From contig NZ_JAIWPJ010000002.1 in NCBI RefSeq assembly GCF_020515625.1, positions 558,001-622,000 on the forward strand: a stretch of 64,000 bases of DNA, in the 5' to 3' direction. The position numbers and the translations under genes are program-made. This stretch comes from Natrinema amylolyticum. Its GTDB lineage: Archaea; Halobacteriota; Halobacteria; Halobacteriales; Natrialbaceae. A model generated the notes under the pieces. It was not told the DNA's origin. It saw only the letters and a program-made list of their open reading frames with translations, and made no database searches. This document shows, piece after piece, positions 3,346 to 31,768 of this stretch (its first letter is position 1; each line of letters starts with the position of its first letter).

Positions 3346-3887
3346 TCGTCTCGGTTCTCGAGTAACGCCTTTTCGACGCGTCCGTTCGACACCGCCTGCG
3401 TTCGTTCTCGAAGCGATACCGTGAGCGACCGGTAGTGTGATCTGGAAACAGCGATCATACAACCCGGCGAACAGTGACCTGCAACTCGATGAACAGTGAG
3501 TCCCATCTCTCGAGGGGCGAGGATCACAGGTGACCGCTCGCTCGTCCGTCCGAGAGAGCGGACGGCGACGACAGCGGTCACGCGCACTCGGAACATCGAG
3601 CGGTCACGCGTACCTGAACGCCGAGCGCCGACTGTCGTCACCTGCGACCGTCCGCAGCGGGACAACCGATGCTCGACGTCACGGCGATTCGAGTGCGAGG
3701 AGACGATAGGGAGATCACCGCTCGTACTGTTCTCCTTCGCGCGTTGGTGGCCTCCGTCACTGCGCTGCGATCGGCGTGTCACGCACCGAGTGCGCGATGT
3801 CACACCGCTCGAGCGGTCGCGAGGGTCGTCGCGTGACCGTGATATCTCGATCGGTCACGGGCGATCCCTCGGAGCGGAGAGTGGCGC
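3346..3887. other. Gene-less region with clustered GTCAC motifs
   Basis: No supported gene between glmS and the inverted-repeat element. The open frames on both strands are Arg/Ser-rich and have no recognisable domain. The notable content is the dense set of GTCAC/GTGAC pentamers listed separately. Confidence 0.55.
3474..3858. repeat. Cluster of GTCAC/GTGAC pentamers
   Basis: Eleven copies of GTCAC or its complement begin at 3474, 3530, 3577, 3603, 3637, 3678, 3756, 3778, 3799, 3833 and 3854. Several sit in a longer CGGTCACG context. Fewer than one would be expected in this length for equal base frequencies. Several gaps are 21-22 bp, about two helical turns. No protein is known to me that binds here. 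Confidence 0.5.
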
Positions 3888-3891
3888 TTAT
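3888..3891. repeat. TTAT candidate target duplication, left
   Basis: TTAT abuts the left inverted repeat, and the same four bases abut the right inverted repeat at 5607-5610. A match of four bases alone is weak; it counts only together with the inverted repeats. Confidence 0.4.
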
Positions 3892-3923
3892 CAATAGTCG
3901 GTAATACGGTTTCTTTATTCAGA
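3892..3923 (+). repeat. Left terminal inverted repeat (putative)
   Basis: The inner 18 bp (3906-3923) match the complement of 5575-5592 with one mismatch. The outer 14 bp match at about 8 positions. Confidence 0.5.
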
Positions 3924-4105
3924 GCTGAGTGTGAAACTCGTGGTGAGTATAGGGCAAACAGGTAACGAAGCGACGACCGATTTCTCCTGGAGATAGCAGA
4001 AACGACGTGCTGAATACAGAGTATTGAATGCAGAGCGTCTCTAGCGTTCCTGCAAGAAATCGTAGATAAACGCTGGAGAAAGCTTATTAGTGTCGGTGTA
4101 CCTGA

Positions 4106-4414
4106 ATGAATATGGACGGAGATGGCGGTGGTGGCACAATGGGGGGTCTGCATGGTGATGTAGGAGGGGGTGTAAATGGGGATACGGAAGCTAGAATGGA
4201 GAACGCAGACGGAGACTCTAGGACTTCAGCCCTTCAGTCCATGGGATACATAGATAATGGAACTGGGATGGGTCGGAGGGAGGGAGACTCTACGGATGCT
4301 GGACATTCAGTTCTCCAGTCAGTCTTACTGATAACAGTAGCAGTATTCGTCGGGGGTTCTCTCCTGTACTTCCTCATAACAGGTATATTGGCTATGTTTG
4401 GTGTAACCCTGTAG
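4106..4414 (+). CDS. Small Gly/Asp-rich tail-anchored membrane protein
   Basis: Hypothetical protein of up to 102 residues. The first half is rich in Gly, Asp and Met (DGDGGGGTMGG, HGDVGGGVNGD). A single hydrophobic segment occupies about residues 72-98 near the C-terminus, so it would be a tail-anchored protein facing the cytoplasm. A TATA-like ttatta at 4084-4089 lies 23-28 bp before a second ATG at 4112, so the true start may be 4112 as a leaderless message. It is the only gene carried by the putative inverted-repeat element apart from the nested IS. Base composition is lower in GC than the neighbours, which suggests transfer. I do not recognise the family. Confidence 0.5.
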   Translation: MNMDGDGGGGTMGGLHGDVGGGVNGDTEARMENADGDSRTSALQSMGYIDNGTGMGRREGDSTDAGHSVLQSVLLITVAVFVGGSLLYFLITGILAMFGVTL

Positions 4415-4519
4415 TGAGCCGTTCCACTCTGGTAACTGTCTGAAGAATACGCTTTCATACCCCGACTCTCAATAACTGCAACCACCGACACCATTTCTGC
4501 TGGAATTTTGTGGGATATA

Positions 4520-4528
4520 CGCGCTGTG
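4520..4528. repeat. IS target-site duplication, left copy
   Basis: CGCGCTGTG, repeated directly at 5463-5471. The exact length is 8 or 9 bp because the element end is G/C ambiguous by one base. Length fits the ISH1 group of the IS5 family. Confidence 0.8.
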
Positions 4529-5462
4529 GGCCTTGTTTAGACGCGTAAGATTCGTGGTGTTAGAGCCTCACGGCTTGCTCGATGTTTCTGACGGCGGCCT
4601 TTAAGACGAGCTCTCTGAACTGTCCAAACCACGTTCTAGCCCGCAACGTCTCGCCGAACCGATGTTTCAATGCGAAGAAGATTGCTTCAACGATCGAGCG
4701 GCGGTGATAGACGTTCTCGTCGTGGCGAGCGTTGTGCGCCTTGTCAAGTCCATAGAACTCACGATGTTTGATCACTGGGCGGATTCCAGCATCCCTGAGT
4801 TCGTGCCGGAGCGCGTCCCAGTCGTAGCTTTTGTCGGCTGTGATCGTGGTTAGCTGTGCCAGATTTCTCGTGAGTACCTGCCGTCCAACTTGGGTGTCAT
4901 GGGGCTGTTTCATCGAGCAATGAATGTCGAGGATGACGCTAGTATCGCAATCGACGAGCGCCGTCGTCTTGATATCGTCAAAATTGTATCCGACACGGAG
5001 GACGTAGTGACGACTGGCTTGATGGCGTTTGAAGCCGGTTGCGTCGATCGCCTGAACGTCGCCGAGCTCGTGCAGCGAGACAGACAGCCGCAGCAACACC
5101 CGCCAGATCCGCATTGTGAGATCCTGTTTCCGGGTACAGACGGTTGTGAAATCCGGTAGCTGATCCACCGCAAGGCCGAGTTTTGCCGCGATTCTGGGCA
5201 TCTCACGCAGAATGTCGAGCAACCGACGGTACGGCTGGTTCAGGTACTCTCGAAGGCAGTGAATCGAGACAATTACCCAGTCAGCATAGCCGCCGTCACC
5301 TTTCCTGACCGCCGGTGCTGGCTCGCCAGTGACAGCGTTCTGGGACAAATCGACACATCGGTCGGTAAACCGGGCGAGTTGAGACGGCATACTCGCTGCT
5401 TCCTCATTCACCTCCACATAATCCCGGTCAAGACGGCAACTGAGCAGCGTCTAAACGTGGCC
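4529..5462 (-). mobile_element. Complete IS5-family (ISH1-type) insertion sequence
   Basis: The 934-bp element has 16-bp terminal inverted repeats, GGCC(TT/AC)GTTTAGACGC, at 4529-4544 and 5447-5462 with two mismatches. It is flanked by identical 8-9 bp direct repeats and contains one intact transposase on the minus strand. Identical duplications and an undamaged reading frame suggest recent insertion. It lies inside the older inverted-repeat element. Confidence 0.85.
4560..5417 (-). CDS. IS5-family transposase
   Basis: This 285-residue DDE transposase catalyses cut-and-paste or copy movement of the surrounding IS. The catalytic triad is visible: Asp125 in AIDATGF, Asp195 in TADKSYDW and Glu244 in RRSIVEAIF, with the YHRRSIVEAIFFALKHRF block typical of the IS4/IS5 DDE_Tnp_1 fold. 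The reading frame is complete and fills most of the element, leaving about 30-45 bp at each end. Met10 is an alternative start. The frame and motifs look functional. Confidence 0.92.
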   Translation of the reverse strand: MEVNEEAASMPSQLARFTDRCVDLSQNAVTGEPAPAVRKGDGGYADWVIVSIHCLREYLNQPYRRLLDILREMPRIAAKLGLAVDQLPDFTTVCTRKQDLTMRIWRVLLRLSVSLHELGDVQAIDATGFKRHQASRHYVLRVGYNFDDIKTTALVDCDTSVILDIHCSMKQPHDTQVGRQVLTRNLAQLTTITADKSYDWDALRHELRDAGIRPVIKHREFYGLDKAHNARHDENVYHRRSIVEAIFFALKHRFGETLRARTWFGQFRELVLKAAVRNIEQAVRL

Positions 5463-21840: not shown

Positions 21841-21912
21841 ATGAACGACACTCGTCCGCGACCACGGAGACCGGACGCTCGAGAAGCGGGAGGTGGTCCC
21901 CGGTGGAGCTGA
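21841..21912 (+). CDS. Possible upstream short ORF overlapping topA
   Basis: A 23-codon frame, MNDTRPRPRRPDAREAGGGPRWS, begins at the position where a leaderless mRNA would start and ends with TGA 10 nt inside topA, in a different frame. It spans the topA Shine-Dalgarno site, so its translation could couple to or compete with topA initiation. Too short to judge as a protein; it is listed for its position. Confidence 0.3.
   Translation: MNDTRPRPRRPDAREAGGGPRWS
21888..21895 (+). promoter_or_regulatory. Shine-Dalgarno of topA
   Basis: GGAGGTGG, 7 nt before the GTG at 21903. It supports the GTG start, which gives the conserved MELIITEKDNAARRIA opening. Confidence 0.7.
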
Positions 21913-24386
21913 TCATCACGGAGAAGGACAACGCGGCCCGCCGGATCGCCGACATCCTGAGCGGCGGGACCTACGACTCGAGTCGCGAGAACGGAGTCAA
22001 CGTCTACGAGTGGGGCGGAAAGCGCTGCGTGGGGCTGTCGGGCCACGTCGTCGGCGTCGACTTCCCCTCCGAATACTCCGACTGGCGGGACGTCGAGCCG
22101 GTCGAGTTGATCGACGCGAACGTCGAGAAGACGGCGACGAAGGAGAACATCGTCGCGACGTTGCGATTGCTGTCCCGGCGCGCACAGCGCGTGACGATCG
22201 CGACCGACTACGACCGCGAGGGCGAACTGATCGGCAAGGAGGCCTACGATATCGTCCGCAACGTCGACGAGGACGTGCCGATTCGCCGGGTTCGGTTCTC
22301 CTCGATCACGGAAAACGAGGTCCAGAGCGCGTTCGACGAACCCGACGAACTCGACTTCGATCTCGCGGCCGCCGGCGAGGCCCGCCAGATCATCGACCTG
22401 ATTTGGGGGGCTGCGCTCACCCGCTATCTCTCCCTGTCGGCGGGCCAACTCGGCGACGACTTCATCTCCGTCGGCCGGGTGCAGTCGCCGACCCTCAAAC
22501 TGATCGTCGACCGCGAGCGCGAGATTCAGGCCTTCGAGCCCGAGGACTACTGGGAGCTGTTCGCGGATCTGACGAAGGACGAGACGGCCTTCGAAGCGCA
22601 GTACTTCTACCGCGACGAGGACGACAACGAGGCCGAACGCGTCTGGGAGGAGGCCACCGCGGACGAGGTCTACGAGACGCTCGCCGACCGCGATGCCGCA
22701 ACGGTCGTCGACGTCAACCGGCGGACCCGCACCGACACGCCGCCGGAGCCGTTCAACACGACCCAGTTCATCCGCGCGGCGGGCGCCATCGGCTACTCGG
22801 CCAAGCGAGCGATGTCGATCGCCGAGGACCTCTACACCGCCGGCTACATCACCTATCCGCGGACCGACAACACCGTCTACCCCGACGATCTCGACCCCGA
22901 GGAACTCTTAGACGAGTTCGTCAGCCATCCGTCGCTCGGCGAGAGCGCCGAGTCGCTGCTCGAGGCCGACGAGATCGTCCCCACCGAGGGCGACGAGGAG
23001 ACGACCGACCACCCGCCGATTCACCCGACGGGCGAGATCCCGAGCCGCGGCGGCGACGTCAGCGACGACGAGTGGGAGGTCTACGAGCTCGTTGTCCGGC
23101 GGTTCTACGCGACCGTCGCCGACGCCGCGGTCTGGGAACACCTCAAGGTCGTCGCCGAAGTCGACGATCACCGGCTCAAGTCCAACGGCAAGCGCCTCGT
23201 CGAGCCCGGCTACCACGACGTCTATCCGTACTTCAGTACGACGGAGAACTACGTCCCCGACGTCGACGAGGGCGAGGAACTGGCGCTCTCCGACGTCGAA
23301 CTCGAGGACAAACAGACCCAGCCACCGCGGCGATACGGCCAGTCGCGGCTCATCGAGACGATGGAGGACATGGGGATCGGCACGAAGTCGACGCGTCACA
23401 ACACCCTCGAGAAGCTGTACGATCGGGGCTACATCGAGAGCGATCCGCCGCGGCCGACGAAGCTCGCGATGGCCGTCGTCGACGCGGCCGAGAACTACGC
23501 CGACCGGATCGTCAGCGAGGAGATGACCGCCCAGCTCGAGGCCGACATGGACGCCATCGCCAGCGGCGAGGCCACCCTCGACGACGTCACCGATGAGTCC
23601 CGGGAGATGCTCGAGGAGATCTTCGCGAACCTCGCCGACTCGCGCGACGAGATCGGCGACCACCTCCGCAAGTCGCTGAAAGACGACAAGCGGCTGGGGC
23701 CGTGTCCCGAGTGCGGCGAGGACCTGCTCGTGCGCCGGAGCCGCCACGGCTCGTACTTCATCGGCTGCGACGGCTACCCCGACTGCGAGAACACGCTGCC
23801 GCTGCCCTCGACCGGCAAGCCGCTCATCCTCGAGGAGGAGTGCGAGGAGCACGGCCTGAACGAGGTCAAGATGCTCGCGGGCCGGCAGACGTTCGTCCAC
23901 GGCTGTCCGCTCTGTAAGGCCGAGGACGCCGGCGAGGGGCCGGTGCTGGGCGACTGTCCGGACTGCGGCGAGGAACACGGGGGCGAGTTGGCGGTCAAGA
24001 CCCTCCAGAGCGGCTCCCGGCTGGTCGGCTGTACGCGCTACCCCGACTGCGAGTACTCGCTGCCCCTGCCCCGGCGGGGCGATATCGAGGTCACCGACGA
24101 GCACTGCGACGAACACGAACTCCCCGAGATCGTCGTCCACAGCGGCGACGAGCCCTGGGAACTGGGTTGTCCAATCTGTAACTATCAGGAGTTCCAGGCC
24201 CGCGAGAGCGAGTCGGGCTCGGACCTCGAGGCGCTCGACGGGGTCGGCGCGAAGACCGTCGAGAAGCTCGCCGACGCGGGGATCGAGGACCTCGAGGACC
24301 TGACCGAGGCCGATCCCGACACCGTCGCGTCGGACGTCGAGGGCGTCAGCGCCGATCGCATCCGGAGCTGGCAGGCGAAGGCGTAG
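21903..24386 (+). CDS. topA: DNA topoisomerase I (type IA)
   Basis: Relaxes negative supercoils by single-strand passage; 827 residues. The Toprim domain opens with LIITEKDNAARRIA and contains the acidic DYDREGE motif. The catalytic tyrosine is Tyr318 in GYITYPRTDN. The C-terminus holds zinc-ribbon units of topoisomerase type (CPECGEDLLVRRSRHGSYFIGCDGYPDC, and later CPDCGEE ... GCTRYPDC), a degenerate one, and a helix-hairpin-helix (LDGVGAKTVEKLADAGIEDL) at the end. A GTG start with a strong Shine-Dalgarno site is used. It ends 2 bp before the convergent APC gene. Confidence 0.97.
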   Translation: MELIITEKDNAARRIADILSGGTYDSSRENGVNVYEWGGKRCVGLSGHVVGVDFPSEYSDWRDVEPVELIDANVEKTATKENIVATLRLLSRRAQRVTIATDYDREGELIGKEAYDIVRNVDEDVPIRRVRFSSITENEVQSAFDEPDELDFDLAAAGEARQIIDLIWGAALTRYLSLSAGQLGDDFISVGRVQSPTLKLIVDREREIQAFEPEDYWELFADLTKDETAFEAQYFYRDEDDNEAERVWEEATADEVYETLADRDAATVVDVNRRTRTDTPPEPFNTTQFIRAAGAIGYSAKRAMSIAEDLYTAGYITYPRTDNTVYPDDLDPEELLDEFVSHPSLGESAESLLEADEIVPTEGDEETTDHPPIHPTGEIPSRGGDVSDDEWEVYELVVRRFYATVADAAVWEHLKVVAEVDDHRLKSNGKRLVEPGYHDVYPYFSTTENYVPDVDEGEELALSDVELEDKQTQPPRRYGQSRLIETMEDMGIGTKSTRHNTLEKLYDRGYIESDPPRPTKLAMAVVDAAENYADRIVSEEMTAQLEADMDAIASGEATLDDVTDESREMLEEIFANLADSRDEIGDHLRKSLKDDKRLGPCPECGEDLLVRRSRHGSYFIGCDGYPDCENTLPLPSTGKPLILEEECEEHGLNEVKMLAGRQTFVHGCPLCKAEDAGEGPVLGDCPDCGEEHGGELAVKTLQSGSRLVGCTRYPDCEYSLPLPRRGDIEVTDEHCDEHELPEIVVHSGDEPWELGCPICNYQEFQARESESGSDLEALDGVGAKTVEKLADAGIEDLEDLTEADPDTVASDVEGVSADRIRSWQAKA

Positions 24387-24388
24387 GA

Positions 24389-25708
24389 TCAGACCCGTTT
24401 TTCGACCTGTCGGATCCCTTCCGAGAGCGCCCGTCGTTTGAAGTACATCGCTTCGACCGCGAATACCACCGCCGCGATGACGACGACCAGCCAGAAGACC
24501 GCGGGCAGTTGCGAGTAGAGGTACCACGTCAGCATGACGAAGAACGCGGCCGAGCCGACGACGCCGAGCAGCGGCGGGATCGGGTTGACGTCGACCGCGT
24601 CGGAATCGCGCATCGTCAGTGCGAGCGCGCTCATCGCGCCGAAGACGACGATGAAGGCCAGCGAGGCGAACTCCACGACGGCCTCGAGGCTGCCGAGGAC
24701 GGTGAACGCGGCCGTCAGGAGGCCGATGACGATCACGGTTCGTTTCGGGGCGGCGTCGGCGTCGGGGTCGCCCATCTCGTGGGGCAAGATGTCGTCACCG
24801 ATCAGGTTCTTGGCGAAGATGGCCTCGCTGAACAGTGTCGAGTTGATCGCGCTGGCCGTCGAGATGAGGCCGGCGAGGCCGACCGCGAGCGCGAGCCACT
24901 TCGAGATGAGCAGTGCGCCGTAGAGCAGCGCGGGTTCGGGCTGGGCGGCGACGACCTCCTCGGGGAGGAGGGTCGTGATCACGAACCCGACGAGAACGTA
25001 GATGGCCGCCGCAATCGGGATCGAGACGAACACGCCCTTCGCGAGCGTCTCGTCCGGATCCTCGAACTGCTCCTGGTCGTAGAACAGCAGTTGCCATCCC
25101 TCGAAGGAGACGAAGCCGACGGAGGCCGCGAGGATGGGATTGATTCCGAACTCTGAGAAGCCGAGTCGCAGTTGGTAGTTCGCAGCGCCGTACCACAGAC
25201 CGATCAGGCCGAACGCGGCGATGATGCCCGCCTGTACGAACACGAGGTACCGTTCGACCGCCGCCGACGATCCCGCGCCGAGGAGGTTCAACCCGACGAA
25301 GACCGCGAGCACGCCGACAGAGAGGAACTGCCGGATCGGCAGCCCCCAGACGTACTCGTAGCCGATCAGCATCTGCCCGTACATGCCGAACGCGTAGGCG
25401 TACATCGCCATCGTCCCGATATACCCGACGACGAGCGTCCAGCCGACTACGCCCGCGATCGTCGATCTCCCCGTCAGTTCCTCGATGTACGTGACCGAGC
25501 CGCCGTCGCTGTCGGTCGCGTCGTTCAATTTGACGTACGAGTAGGCACAGCACAGGACGACGACGGTCGCGAGACTGTAAGCGAACCACGTCAGGATCCC
25601 CGCGGCGGCCACGACGATGCCGATCGCCGCGTAGATCCCGCCGCCGACGATGCCGCCGACGCCGAGCGCAACGGCCGTTCCGAGCCCGAATCCGCTCTCC
25701 TCGCTCAT
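24389..25708 (-). CDS. APC-family permease
   Basis: The 439-residue amino acid/polyamine/organocation transporter has about twelve helices. The first helix has the conserved unwound motif GVGGIVGGGIYAAIG, which binds the substrate backbone in this superfamily. Other features are FVSFEGWQLLFYD in helix 6 and the STASAINSTLF segment. The ATG at 25708 overlaps the stop of the upstream solute-binding lipoprotein by 4 bp, so the two are translationally coupled. No ABC permease or ATPase is present nearby. Substrate is unknown; an amino acid, amine or peptide fragment is likely. Confidence 0.9.
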   Translation of the reverse strand: MSEESGFGLGTAVALGVGGIVGGGIYAAIGIVVAAAGILTWFAYSLATVVVLCCAYSYVKLNDATDSDGGSVTYIEELTGRSTIAGVVGWTLVVGYIGTMAMYAYAFGMYGQMLIGYEYVWGLPIRQFLSVGVLAVFVGLNLLGAGSSAAVERYLVFVQAGIIAAFGLIGLWYGAANYQLRLGFSEFGINPILAASVGFVSFEGWQLLFYDQEQFEDPDETLAKGVFVSIPIAAAIYVLVGFVITTLLPEEVVAAQPEPALLYGALLISKWLALAVGLAGLISTASAINSTLFSEAIFAKNLIGDDILPHEMGDPDADAAPKRTVIVIGLLTAAFTVLGSLEAVVEFASLAFIVVFGAMSALALTMRDSDAVDVNPIPPLLGVVGSAAFFVMLTWYLYSQLPAVFWLVVVIAAVVFAVEAMYFKRRALSEGIRQVEKRV

Positions 25709-27348
25709 GACTCTGATCCCACCGTGACGACCTCGTTTTCCCACGCGAGCCGAGGATTGACCCGCGCGATCGGATGGACGCGGAAGTTCTCGATGCCCGC
25801 GTCCACGGCGAAGCTGTTATCGAACGAACAGATCGGCAGACAGACCCGGTCCTCGAGCAGACGAGTGATCGCTTCCTCGTAGAGCCGGCGTCGCCGCTCG
25901 CGGTTCTCGGTCTCGCGAGCCGCCGTGAGCCGTTCCATGACCGCGTCCTCGCGGTAGAACGTCCCGTTGGTCACTCCGGCCGTGTTCTCGTGGAACGTCG
26001 GATAGAGGTGCGAGTCCGGATCGGGCGTCCCGGTTATCTCGCCGACGAACACCGAGTAGTCGCGCTCGGAGCCGGTGACGGACCGCTCGAGGAAGACGGA
26101 TTCGGGCTTCGAGATCACGAGCGCGCCGTGACTGGCGTCCCGGAGGCCGCCGGCCAGCGCCTCGCCGAACTCCTTGTGTTTCGGATCCGTCGTGGTGAGG
26201 ATGCGGAGTTGGCCGCTCGCCTCGTCGGCCTCGCGGAACAGTTGCCGAGCCCTCTCGGGGTTCGTCTCGTTCGCGAGGTCGGCCCACTCGTCGGTCGGCA
26301 TGTCCCACTCCGCGGCGACCTGCGGCGGTAGCGGACTGTACTGGCGCTCTCCCATCGGCTCGATGAACTCGGCGACCGCTTTCTCGAGATCGAGACAGTA
26401 GCTGATCGCCTCCCGAACCCGCGGGTCGGTCGTCGGCCCCTGGTTCAGGTTGAAGCCGAAGTAGAACGACGTGTACCCCTGCCGTCGCGTCACCGACGCG
26501 TTCGACACGTCGCTGACGTGATCGACGATCATCGGAGAGACCGGCTCGATCGCATCGTTGCGGTTCGTTCGGAGGCTCGTCAGCTGCGTCATCGGGAACT
26601 CGACGTACGCCACGGTGAATCGATCGATCGCGGGCGTCGGCTCACCCCAGTAGTCGTCCCAGCGCGACAGCGTGGCCTTCGTTTCCGCGCTGAACGACGC
26701 CACCTCGAACGGACCGGCACCGATCGGGTCCGTCGCGAACGCCTCCCTGTCGTCTTCCCGCTCCTGGCGGGGAACGATCGGGTAGGAGAGGGCGTGGTCG
26801 AGGGCCGGATACGGAGCCTCGAGCGTGAACCTGACGGTGCGTTCGTCGACGGCGTCGACCGACTCGATCGGACTCACTCGCCACGCCGTCGGCGCGTCTT
26901 CCTCGACGGGCGCGGTAAACGAGTAGGCCACGTCGTCGGCGACCACCTCGCGTCCGTTCTGGAACCGCGCCCGGTCGTCGAGTTCGACGACGGCCGTCCG
27001 GCCGTCGTCCTCGAACTGCGGTTCACCGGTGGCGATTTTGGGTACGGTTTCGGTCCCGTTACTGTACTCGTAGAGCCCGTCGAAGATTCGGCCGATCGCC
27101 TGTTCGGAGCCGATAGCGCGTGCACGGATCGGATCGAGCGTAATCGGCGGACGGAGCGTTCCGACGCGAAAAGTGGTCACCGATTCCGAGCCGAGCATCG
27201 CCGAACAGCCCGCGAGTGCACCGGTGCTCGCAGCACCAAGAGCGGCGAGCAGGCCGCGCCGCGTCGTCTCACGGGACCACTCGGTCGTCCGTTCGTTCGT
27301 CCACCCCGGAGCGGGGAATTCGTCCGGTGTCGTCTCGTTGGCTCCCAT
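25705..27348 (-). CDS. Family 5 extracellular solute-binding lipoprotein
   Basis: This 547-residue lipoprotein resembles peptide/nickel-binding components of ABC importers. It has a Tat signal with Arg30-Arg31 (TTRRGLLAALGAA) and lipobox LAGC with Cys48. The SBP_bac_5 landmarks are present: LRPPITLDPIRARAIGSEQ, the DDRARFQNGREVVADDVAYSF block, and repeated Tyr/Trp-rich stretches. It is the first gene of a two-gene operon with an APC permease (4-bp overlap), which is not the usual partner for this family. Whether it delivers substrate to the APC protein is inference. Confidence 0.9.
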   Translation of the reverse strand: MGANETTPDEFPAPGWTNERTTEWSRETTRRGLLAALGAASTGALAGCSAMLGSESVTTFRVGTLRPPITLDPIRARAIGSEQAIGRIFDGLYEYSNGTETVPKIATGEPQFEDDGRTAVVELDDRARFQNGREVVADDVAYSFTAPVEEDAPTAWRVSPIESVDAVDERTVRFTLEAPYPALDHALSYPIVPRQEREDDREAFATDPIGAGPFEVASFSAETKATLSRWDDYWGEPTPAIDRFTVAYVEFPMTQLTSLRTNRNDAIEPVSPMIVDHVSDVSNASVTRRQGYTSFYFGFNLNQGPTTDPRVREAISYCLDLEKAVAEFIEPMGERQYSPLPPQVAAEWDMPTDEWADLANETNPERARQLFREADEASGQLRILTTTDPKHKEFGEALAGGLRDASHGALVISKPESVFLERSVTGSERDYSVFVGEITGTPDPDSHLYPTFHENTAGVTNGTFYREDAVMERLTAARETENRERRRRLYEEAITRLLEDRVCLPICSFDNSFAVDAGIENFRVHPIARVNPRLAWENEVVTVGSES

Positions 27349-27565
27349 AGAGATCCGTTTCGTGACCGAGAACGGGTCGAACCTATCGTGACGAACGACG
27401 TTGTGTGGCCGGCCTGCACCTGATGGGAGTCAGTAGCGGCTCGAATCGGGGCGATTATTGGATCTCGGTTTGCCGGAGATAGAATTAACTGAGTGTATCT
27501 GTACGTATAACTATCAACGCGATTGCGTGTGCCGCGGCTACGGACACCGTATATCTGGACACACT

Positions 27566-30500
27566 ATGTCAGAATTGAATGATGTGCCGAACGGACCGAG
27601 CGAGGGACAGGGAGACGGCGTCGAAGTCACCGTCGGTATCGATCGACTCGAGGCGTTCCTGACGGCCGACGATCCCGACGTCAGAGAGTACGCCGCCAAG
27701 ACGCTGGCCAACGAGGCGTCGAATCGTCCGGGGGACGTCCGCTCCGCGGTCGAATCGCTGACCGACCGTCTCGGGGACGAGCCGTCGATCAGGTCTCACG
27801 CGGCCGCGGCGCTGTCGGCCGTCGCGGCCGCCTTCCCGAGGGAGACCCGAGACGCCGCCCCGGCGCTGACCGACCGGCTCGAGGGATCGGGGGCGGTACG
27901 GGCGGACGCGGCGGACGCGCTCGCCTCGATCGCCGCAGACGATCCGAGCGCCGTCAGCGATTCGGCGACGGCGCTCGCGGCCTACGTGACCGCCGACGAG
28001 GAGCGCGTCCGCGTCCGAACGACGGACGCGCTCGCCTCGATCGCCGACGACGACCCCGAATCGGTCGTTCCCGTCGCTGACGAGATCACGGCCGCGACCG
28101 ACGACGAGACCGTCGCGGTCCGAGAGAACGCGACGGCGACCCTCGCAGCGATCGCGGCCCACGACCCCGACGCCGTCCTCAATGCCGTCGATCGGCTCGT
28201 CGACTGTCTCGAGGACGAGCCGGCCGTCAGGGAACACGCCGCTCGAGCGCTCCGGTCCGTCGCGGCCGAACGACCGTCAGCGGTCGCGACGGCGGTCGAG
28301 CCGATCGCCGCGGGGCTCACCGACGAGCGCGAATCCGTCCGCGCCGACGTCGCGGCGGCGCTCGAAGCCGTGGCGACGGACCGTCCCGAGTCCGTCGGCG
28401 CGGTCGTCGACCGACTCGCGTCGAGCCTCGACGCCGAGGCCGCCGTCCGCGAGGCGGCCGTCGCTGCCGTCAGGGCCGTTATCGGGACCGTCCCCGATGC
28501 GGTCGTCCCGGCCGTCGGCCCGCTCGTCGAGCGACTCGAGGATTCACTCGAGACGGTCCGGATCGATGCGGCCGCCGCGCTGGCGACCCTGGCGACGGAG
28601 CGGCCCGACGCGGTCGAGCCGGCCGTCGAACCGCTTGCGGACCGGCTGGCGGACGGCGATCCGCCGGTTCGACGGCACGGCGTCGCGGCCATCGCCACCG
28701 TCGGGGACGAGACTCCCGCGGCGCTCGTCCCCGTCGTCGGCGAACTCGCGGACGTGCTCGCGGCCGACGACAACGATGACGACGTGCGGCTCGAGGCCGC
28801 CCGCGCCATCGCGGCGGTCGCCGAAACGCGCCCCCGTTCGATCCGACCGATCGTCCCGCGACTCGCCGACCGACTCGCCGACTCCCACGAACCGGTTCGC
28901 GATCACGCGGTCGACGCGCTCGGCGCAGTCGCGCTCGCGGACGCCGACGACGAGGTCGACGTCCCGGCGCTGATCGACCGGCTCGAGGCGGACGACGAGT
29001 GGGTTCGGGGCTACGCCGCCCGCAGGCTGGCCGAGATCGCCGAATCAGGGGTCGCCGACCCGCATCCGGCGGTCCGCTCGCTGCGTCGGCGCCTCGACCA
29101 CGACAGCGCGGCGGTGCGGCGGTCGGCCGCCAGGGATCTCGTCCCGATCGCCGCCGAGCGGCCTCGAGAGGCGCGCGAAGCGGTCCCATCGCTCGGCGAC
29201 CGGCTCTCCGACGATGACGCGAGCGTCCGAAACAACGCGGCGCTCGCGCTCTCGCGACTCGCCGAGACGCATCCCGACGACGTCCGCCCGGCGCTCAACG
29301 GGCTGTTCGCCGTGGTCGACGACTCGGACCGCAGCGTCCGCGAAACGGTCCGCGAGACGCTCACCGCGGTCGCATCCGTCTCGCGCGGCGACTGCCGGCC
29401 ACCGGTCGCGCTCGCCGTCGCGGAGGTCGACGCCGACGAGGCGGCGATCCGCGTCGCCGCCTGCGAGGCACTGGCCGTCCTCGGCTGCGAGACGGGGGCC
29501 GAGACGACGGCCGCCGTCGGCGCCGTCTGCGACCTGCTCGTCGAGCCGACGTCGAGGGTCCGCGCCGCGGCCCTGGACACGCTCGAGACGCTCCTCGCCG
29601 CGGATATCGAGACCGAGCCGACGCCGTCCGAGGCGGTCGTCGAGATCGTCTCGGCCGACGACGAGCGCGCGACGGCGGTGGCGACGGCGCTCGCCGACAT
29701 CGCGCGGATCGACCCGGAACTGATCGCCGAGGCCGCGACCCCGCTCGTCGAACAGCTGCGAGCGGCGACGGGCGACCGACGGCGGGCGCTGGTGCGGACG
29801 CTGACGACGGTCGTCGGGGCGACCGATCGCAGACCGGTTACGGAACTCCTCCTCGGTGACCTCGAGTCGGCCGACGCCGACCGAGCGTCGATCGCCCGCG
29901 ATATCGCCCGATCGGCGGCAGCCGCTCCGGCCGACGCGGTGACCTGTCGAGATCGACTGATCGACCTGGTCGACGATGACGACGACGCGGTTCGGGGGTA
30001 CGCGACGCTGGCGCTCGGGACGCTCGCCGTCACGGGCGACGACGGCTCCGCGCTGAGCGAGGCGCTCGGCGACGTCGATGACCGGCTGCTCGACGCGGCC
30101 TCGCTGGTGAGCGGCGGCGAGACGCCGAGTCTCGACGGGATCGAGGATCAGCTCTCCGGGCTGGGAACGCGCGTCGCAGACGAGCCGTGGGTCGCCGGCC
30201 TCGCCGTTCTCGCGCTCTCGGTGCTCGCCGACGAGGCCGAGCGCCTGCGGCCGACCGGCGTCTCGGAGATCGCCACTGGGCTCACCGTCGAGAGTCCGGT
30301 CGTCCGAGCCACCGCCGGGCGCACGCTCGCGACGATGGCCGCGGACGATCCCCGCGGACTCGAGGCGGCGACCGACGAGTTGCGCGCCGCGCTGTCTGAC
30401 CCCGACGCCGACGTCCGAGCGACGGCCGGGTCGGCCCTGGCCGAGGTCGCCGCAGCGACTGACTCGCTCGCGGCCGACGAGGATCTCGTCGCCGCGCTCC

Positions 30501-31768
30501 GCTCGCGCCTCGCCGATCCCGACGGGCGCGTCCGAGCCCGTGCGATCCGGACGCTGACGGCGCTCGAGGCGGTCGACTCGCTGCCCGCGATTCAGCCGCT
30601 GGTCGACGACCCTGTTCCCGCCGTCTCGACCGCGGCGACGACCGCGACGGCGCGGCTCGAGGACGCTCGCGACGAGGGGGTCGCCGAGTCCGACTGGCCG
30701 ATGGCCCGCGCGGGTCCGGCGGGCACCGGGTTCGCCGGCGACGGGGACGCGCTCGGCGGGCGGCCCGCCAAACGGTGGCGCGTCGAGACCGACGGCACCG
30801 CCGACGCTCCGCCGACGCTGGTCGGCGACACCGTCTTCGTCACGACCGACGACGGCCGCGTCGCCGCACTGGCGCTCGAGGACGGGAGCGAGCGCTGGCG
30901 GGTCGAGACCGACGCACCGATCGGAACCACGCCCGCCGTGGTCGACGAGACGGTCTACGTCGGCGGTGACGCCGCGATCGACGCGCTCGATCTCGAGACG
31001 GGAGACCGGGCCTGGCGATATCGAACGGACGCCGCCGTCCGAACGTCGCCGGTCGTCGCCGACGGAACGGTCTATGTCGGCGGCGAGACCCTCCACGCGA
31101 TCGACGCCGACACCGGCCGGCCGGTCTGGACTGCACCGCTCGCGGACGCGCTCGTCGGCGTCGCCGTCGACGACGGCGTCATGTACGCCGCCTGTGAGGA
31201 GCGGGTGATCGCGCTCGCGGCCGACGACGGGAGCCGGCGCTGGGAGACTGACCTCGACCTCGAGGGCGCGGGACGGACGTCACCGGCGGTCGCCGATGGA
31301 ACCGTCTTCGTCGCCCGTGGCGGAACCCTCTACGCGCTGTCGACCGCCGACGGATCGCGCCGGTTCCGGTTCGATACCGGCGGTCGGTTCGCCGCCTCGC
31401 CGGCCGTCGCGGACGGGCGCGTCTACGCCGCCAGCACCGACGGGAGCGTCTACGCGGTCGACGCGACGACGGGTGCCGAGCACTGGCGGGTCGACGCCGG
31501 CGAGCTGACGACCGATCCGGTCGTCATCGACGACGCCGTCTGCCTGGGAACCGGCGACGGCCACGTCACCGCGCTGGCGACCGGCGACGGCTCCCGACAG
31601 TGGGAACTCGCGGTCGAGCCCGTCACGGACGTGACGGCGATCGCCGTCGCGAGCGGTCGGCTCTGCCTCGTCGGACCCGACGGGATCACGGCGATCGGGG
31701 ACGCACAGTCGTCCTGGAAGGAGTCGATTTCGGGACTGTTCACGCGGTTCGGAAACGGGTCGTCGTAG
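27566..31768 (+). CDS. Giant HEAT-repeat and PQQ-like beta-propeller protein
   Basis: 1400 residues without signal peptide or membrane helix, so cytoplasmic. Residues about 25-1020 are an uninterrupted array of roughly 25 HEAT-type helical repeats of 38-40 residues, each with the theme D.....VR..AA.AL..IA...P. From about 1040, WPMARAGPAGTGF opens a PQQ/quinoprotein-type propeller with repeated DGSERWRVETDAPIGTTPAV and VYVGGD-like blades to the C-terminus. No PQQ-binding or dehydrogenase residues are evident, so the propeller is likely a protein-interaction surface. ATG 27566 gives MSELNDVPNG; the frame runs 36 codons further upstream but those lack the acidic bias. It is divergent from the SBP gene. 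Function is unknown. Confidence 0.85.
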   Translation: MSELNDVPNGPSEGQGDGVEVTVGIDRLEAFLTADDPDVREYAAKTLANEASNRPGDVRSAVESLTDRLGDEPSIRSHAAAALSAVAAAFPRETRDAAPALTDRLEGSGAVRADAADALASIAADDPSAVSDSATALAAYVTADEERVRVRTTDALASIADDDPESVVPVADEITAATDDETVAVRENATATLAAIAAHDPDAVLNAVDRLVDCLEDEPAVREHAARALRSVAAERPSAVATAVEPIAAGLTDERESVRADVAAALEAVATDRPESVGAVVDRLASSLDAEAAVREAAVAAVRAVIGTVPDAVVPAVGPLVERLEDSLETVRIDAAAALATLATERPDAVEPAVEPLADRLADGDPPVRRHGVAAIATVGDETPAALVPVVGELADVLAADDNDDDVRLEAARAIAAVAETRPRSIRPIVPRLADRLADSHEPVRDHAVDALGAVALADADDEVDVPALIDRLEADDEWVRGYAARRLAEIAESGVADPHPAVRSLRRRLDHDSAAVRRSAARDLVPIAAERPREAREAVPSLGDRLSDDDASVRNNAALALSRLAETHPDDVRPALNGLFAVVDDSDRSVRETVRETLTAVASVSRGDCRPPVALAVAEVDADEAAIRVAACEALAVLGCETGAETTAAVGAVCDLLVEPTSRVRAAALDTLETLLAADIETEPTPSEAVVEIVSADDERATAVATALADIARIDPELIAEAATPLVEQLRAATGDRRRALVRTLTTVVGATDRRPVTELLLGDLESADADRASIARDIARSAAAAPADAVTCRDRLIDLVDDDDDAVRGYATLALGTLAVTGDDGSALSEALGDVDDRLLDAASLVSGGETPSLDGIEDQLSGLGTRVADEPWVAGLAVLALSVLADEAERLRPTGVSEIATGLTVESPVVRATAGRTLATMAADDPRGLEAATDELRAALSDPDADVRATAGSALAEVAAATDSLAADEDLVAALRSRLADPDGRVRARAIRTLTALEAVDSLPAIQPLVDDPVPAVSTAATTATARLEDARDEGVAESDWPMARAGPAGTGFAGDGDALGGRPAKRWRVETDGTADAPPTLVGDTVFVTTDDGRVAALALEDGSERWRVETDAPIGTTPAVVDETVYVGGDAAIDALDLETGDRAWRYRTDAAVRTSPVVADGTVYVGGETLHAIDADTGRPVWTAPLADALVGVAVDDGVMYAACEERVIALAADDGSRRWETDLDLEGAGRTSPAVADGTVFVARGGTLYALSTADGSRRFRFDTGGRFAASPAVADGRVYAASTDGSVYAVDATTGAEHWRVDAGELTTDPVVIDDAVCLGTGDGHVTALATGDGSRQWELAVEPVTDVTAIAVASGRLCLVGPDGITAIGDAQSSWKESISGLFTRFGNGSS

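Follow-up and report, generated by a model that had tools for sequence, protein, structure and literature searches.

The window analysed here, a stretch of 64,000 nucleotides from Natrinema amylolyticum, carries on its forward strand a gene of 1400 codons (27566..31768), open from an ATG at 27566 to a stop at 31768, whose 1400-residue product consists of a HEAT-repeat array followed by a β-propeller. The start was placed at this ATG and not at an upstream TTG (27458), as the orthologues begin at the same position; they share the cap EVTVGID with the window protein. Upstream lies topA (21903..24386, forward strand), encoding DNA topoisomerase I, which the comparison of loci identifies as the ancestral neighbour. 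In a subset of lineages, namely the window and several relatives, a pair of genes for an amino-acid permease and an SBP_bac_5 protein (24389..27348, reverse strand) intervenes between topA and the HEAT-propeller gene.

Neither the window protein nor its orthologues showed a signal peptide on inspection, in agreement with the earlier note. No membrane-like hydrophobic stretch is present in the window protein, where the highest 19-residue mean is 1.8. The protein is therefore most likely cytosolic. The high acidity remarked upon in that note is real but not special: the pI is 4.25, compared with 4.29 for the adjoining topA product, and is that of a normal haloarchaeal proteome.

A promoter-like element, GGAGATAGAATTAACT (27475..27490, forward strand), with the core TAGAATTAACT at 27480-27490, precedes the ATG by 86 bp. 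In intact orthologues, TAGAATTAACT is located 72-89 bp 5' of the start; it is exact in most and has at most three mismatches in the rest, compared with usually four or five in a control of shuffled upstream sequence. The longer form GGAGATAGAATTAACT is conserved in orthologues down to 46% protein identity. The element occurs as a single copy in the genome, where no second copy of the longer form with one mismatch was found. As a control, neighbours at the same loci were inspected: the upstream word of topA is even more conserved, whereas the downstream methyltransferase gene and another neighbour have none. Since topA has a comparable word, the element would most simply be a conserved promoter, and its conservation indicates that expression of the gene is under selection. 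The idea of a regulon sharing the element was rejected on the single genomic copy and on the topA word, which is at least as conserved.

Domain architecture and conservation

The HEAT solenoid spans residues ~20-1037 (27623..30676, forward strand). It is matched by the Pfam models HEAT_2 (8e-42; 141.9 bits for a gathering score of 27.7), HEAT_EZ (4e-38) and Adaptin_N (3e-36). AlphaFold2, run on alignments of 22 orthologues, predicts a continuous HEAT solenoid for residues 1-700 with a mean pLDDT of 89.4. Helix-pair repeats number 18 by residue ~694, with about eight more up to residue ~1038, close to the 25 or so first estimated from the sequence. The total of ~26 repeats is followed by a largely disordered linker (residues 1038-1065; 30677..30760, forward strand), with a pLDDT below 50 at residues 1038-1059. 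Eight blades follow from residue 1066, forming a BamB/quinoprotein-type β-propeller (residues 1066-1379; 30761..31702, forward strand) that is matched by PQQ_2 (1e-51; 176.3 bits for a gathering score of 27.6). The model of residues 201-1400 has a mean pLDDT of 87.4 and a pTM of 0.52; as the linker is disordered and the pTM is low, the placing of the propeller relative to the solenoid is unreliable. The C-terminal tail is predicted with low confidence. Reading frame, Pfam matches and models thus uphold the order of HEAT array then propeller that the earlier note had proposed, and both domains fall clearly within their own superfamilies.

The nearest solved folds found with Foldseek for the solenoid are CAND1 and karyopherin-β2, with the PP2A scaffold subunit A also similar. 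Global TM-scores are low (0.2-0.35 over the query), and the likeness to these proteins and to the designed alphaRep lies in the tandem helix-pair repeats, a match of repeat class without specific family relation. For the propeller, the best matches are to BamB, with a TM-score of ~0.8 over the target. The 8-bladed propellers of BamB and Bacillus YxaL resemble that of the window protein in fold, blade sequence pattern and blade number, although BamB is exported whereas the window propeller is cytosolic and C-terminal to a HEAT array. The protein does not belong with BamB itself: the TIGR03300 score is 144.7 bits for a cut-off of 285.2, and there is no signal sequence.

A PQQ-dependent or other quinoprotein-type enzyme might be expected from a propeller of the PQQ/BamB repeat superfamily, with its weak sequence matches to quinoprotein dehydrogenases. 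This is extremely improbable, and already largely refuted. The TIGR03075 model of PQQ-dependent alcohol dehydrogenase scores 64.7 bits, far from the NCBIfam cut-off of 480.05. No vicinal cysteine pair is conserved family-wide, adjacent cysteines being found in g6-type orthologues only and not in the window protein. The invariant propeller residues are mostly the Gly, Trp and Pro of the repeat fold, and the top structural matches are to the non-enzymatic BamB. These comparisons gave no sign of an enzymatic propeller, which would have overturned the scaffold originally proposed.

The gene is under purifying selection, with dN/dS values of 0.23-0.52 relative to the window copy. It evolves about four times faster than topA, the mean pairwise distance being 0.433 while that of topA in these genomes is 0.100. 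The distance matrices of the two genes are correlated (Mantel r 0.83; none of 2000 permutations gave a value as high), which is consistent with vertical descent of the gene along the topA phylogeny.

Conservation is uneven along the protein. The two best 40-residue windows by mean column entropy start at residues 20 and 850. The first (residues 20-59; 27623..27742, forward strand; entropy 0.60) comprises the N-terminal cap and the first HEAT repeat, and the second (residues 850-889; 30113..30232, forward strand; entropy 0.76) contains the motif GGETPS..DGI..QLSGLG. Mean entropy is lower for residues 20-55 (0.56), residues 801-895 (0.97) and the C-terminal tail (1.02) than for repeats 2-21 (1.23), the propeller (1.30) and the linker (1.62). 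The tail, SSWKESISGLFTRFG (31703..31765, forward strand), with the pattern SSWxxSISGLFTRFG, is retained in the divergent g6 orthologues as SSWADRIGFSGLFTRFG. Its conservation despite predicted disorder suggests a candidate docking peptide or an amphipathic segment that binds membranes.

Distribution and loss of the gene

Orthologues are present in 16 of the 29 genomes of the genus, and are full length in all but one, a draft in which the gene is split between contigs. Within the family, matches at E <1e-60 were obtained in 20/91 genomes and 7/29 genera, a count that takes in a relative with HEAT repeats only (genome G061) and a frameshifted relic (G108). Carriers of orthologues include Natrinema hispanicum, Haloterrigena sp. 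H1, Natronolimnohabitans sp. A-GB9 and Natronosalvus hydrolyticus. No plasmid-borne copy was found at E 1e-40.

In samples of 99 genomes from the order and 100 from the phylum, no protein fusing HEAT repeats to a propeller was found beyond the family. The best matches there are propellers. Those scanned, the closest haloarchaeal and methanogen propellers, lack HEAT repeats, and export signals stand at the start of several. The search for this architecture in archaea therefore returned full-length homologues within the family only, among the genomes sampled. In the literature searched, no paper describing the HEAT-propeller family was found. The protein is real, uncharacterised and restricted to the family, and combines two known and common repeat domains, so that it is no machine of a novel type. 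The impression that it has no obvious counterpart has in part to be revised, since many members of the family carry full-length orthologues and proteins pairing a propeller with an α-solenoid, in any order, are reported from most proteomes (PMC2799638).

topA lies upstream of the HEAT-propeller gene in 21 of 24 distinct loci (L011 and L069, being the same place, were counted once). This position, together with matches to the Pfam condensin/cohesin HEAT models Cnd1 and PDS5, could suggest a chromosome-associated protein comparable to the HEAT subunits of condensin and acting with topoisomerase I. Such a role is very unlikely. The Cnd1 and PDS5 matches overlap generic HEAT matches, and these models match HEAT arrays in general. 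topA is present in 90/91 genomes of the family, whereas the HEAT-propeller gene is found in about one fifth and is cleanly absent elsewhere. Some g6 genomes have kept the gene with topA 25-30 kb away, and in several lineages, including the window, an unrelated permease/SBP pair intervenes.

In most genomes of the family without the gene, its usual downstream genes directly abut topA. In G087 (g28), the permease/SBP insertion is present and the HEAT-propeller gene absent, while the congeners G055 and G075 carry the gene. On this pattern a functional link with topA was rejected, and the adjacency looks like an inherited position, not a partnership. The inspection of conserved neighbours proposed at the outset thus gave topA as a positional neighbour but no conserved partner gene, and the presence and absence pattern argues for an inherited position.

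A broken gene relic is found in G108 (L126:4156-8572), frameshifted and matching over three frames. Taken with the empty sites beside topA and with G087, it points to repeated loss of the gene from one ancestral site. As sister species are cleanly devoid of the gene, the protein probably has an accessory, dispensable function.

Some variation was also observed in topA itself. In L108 and in G001, G070, G076, G120, G124 and G144, the topA frames reach ~1000-1380 residues, and their matches to the 827-residue TopA break near residue 495-500 (549 in G120). These are probable inteins in topoisomerase I. In G116, G132, G143, G153 and G160 of family f5, the matches are split at 420/423 with ~100 bp between, a short insertion in the TopA of this family.

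Possible functions of the HEAT-propeller protein

The gene product is probably a cytosolic, non-enzymatic scaffold or adaptor between proteins. This is favoured because the nearest folds are protein-binding, the dehydrogenase and BamB scores fall below their cut-offs and the invariant propeller residues are mostly those that determine the fold. The domain composition, the confident models and the lack of an export signal are also in its favour, as are the purifying selection, the uneven conservation with hot spots and tail, the variable linker and the conserved promoter-like element. The solenoid groove, with its hot spots (residues 20-59 and 850-889), and a face of the propeller would bind client proteins simultaneously, while the flexible linker would let the two domains move relative to each other. 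The C-terminal peptide may dock to a partner or to a membrane surface. The cytoplasmic scaffold of the earlier note thus stands as the best-supported reading, with a HEAT solenoid, a BamB-type propeller and neither export signal nor enzyme signature. This very large protein has been kept by selection in many Natrialbaceae. Its partners can readily be sought, given its hot spots, its conserved tail and the closely related species that have or lack the gene.

One point against the scaffold is that sensing or signalling is another possible use of HEAT and propeller domains. In a sensor of ligand or stress, the propeller would have a small molecule or a peptide as its ligand, and the HEAT array would relay the state to a regulator or effector. 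Solved relatives of the propeller include domains annotated by their depositors as from membrane-associated kinases, there is a weak similarity to the propellers of AfsK kinases (113.8 bits for a cut-off of 1300), and the scaffolding components recorded for prokaryotic conflict systems include both HEAT and propeller repeats (PMC7159879). Nevertheless, no gene for a kinase, NTPase, vWA protein or effector is a consistent neighbour at the loci examined, the gene sits among housekeeping genes and not in a defence island, and the PADLOC matches are weak and concern repeats only. A sensor is therefore considered unlikely. The narrower proposal of an anti-phage defence protein was rejected, the PADLOC matches being partial as well as weak and the neighbourhood housekeeping.

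Clathrin, COPI/COPII, nucleoporins and Gemmata gp4978 likewise combine a propeller and an α-solenoid in one chain, and what defines the membrane-coat class is the order, with the propeller N-terminal and the α-solenoid C-terminal (PMC2799638). A vesicle- or membrane-coat-like protein could also be suggested by the resemblance of the solenoid to Adaptin_N and COPI-gamma, by the amphipathic C-terminal tail, and by the haloarchaeal adaptin-like proteins with PQQ-like propellers described beside ESCRT components (PMC10936438). It is highly doubtful, as the domain order is opposite to that of the class, the solenoid preceding the propeller, and the solenoid similarities are those of generic HEAT repeats. 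No Snf7/ESCRT-III match was found in the genome. A link to ESCRT or coats was rejected, with no clear co-occurrence in the family.

In eukaryotes, Raptor and Vps15 place a C-terminal propeller after HEAT repeats, as does the window protein, although their propeller is of the WD40 and not of the PQQ type and they possess extra kinase or caspase-like domains. The likeness is one of domain order, with no homology shown. A further version of the scaffold, which is distinctly unlikely, would be a haloarchaea-specific giant organiser of a lineage-restricted complex, in the cytosol or at the membrane surface, acting through the HEAT groove, the propeller and the docking peptide. It would be an independent archaeal counterpart of Raptor/Vps15, or an inverted coat-like protein. 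Archaeal HEAT-plus-propeller scaffolds resembling those of eukaryotes would bear on the origin of large organiser proteins.

The HEAT-only relative in G061 (L074:8323-11562, reverse strand; 1080 residues) aligns through its HEAT array to residues 17-1051 of the window protein with ~37% identity and also ends in a Trp-containing tail, but it has no propeller, does not lie beside topA and is not preceded by the upstream element. The Haloterrigena salina copy (L016:9881-13105; 1075 residues) has apparently lost the propeller in frame, by natural deletion or assembly error. The genome of the window also encodes a HEAT-like protein of 316 residues (L106:2593-3540, forward strand), likewise adjoining a gene for a substrate-binding-protein-like product (3702-5417).
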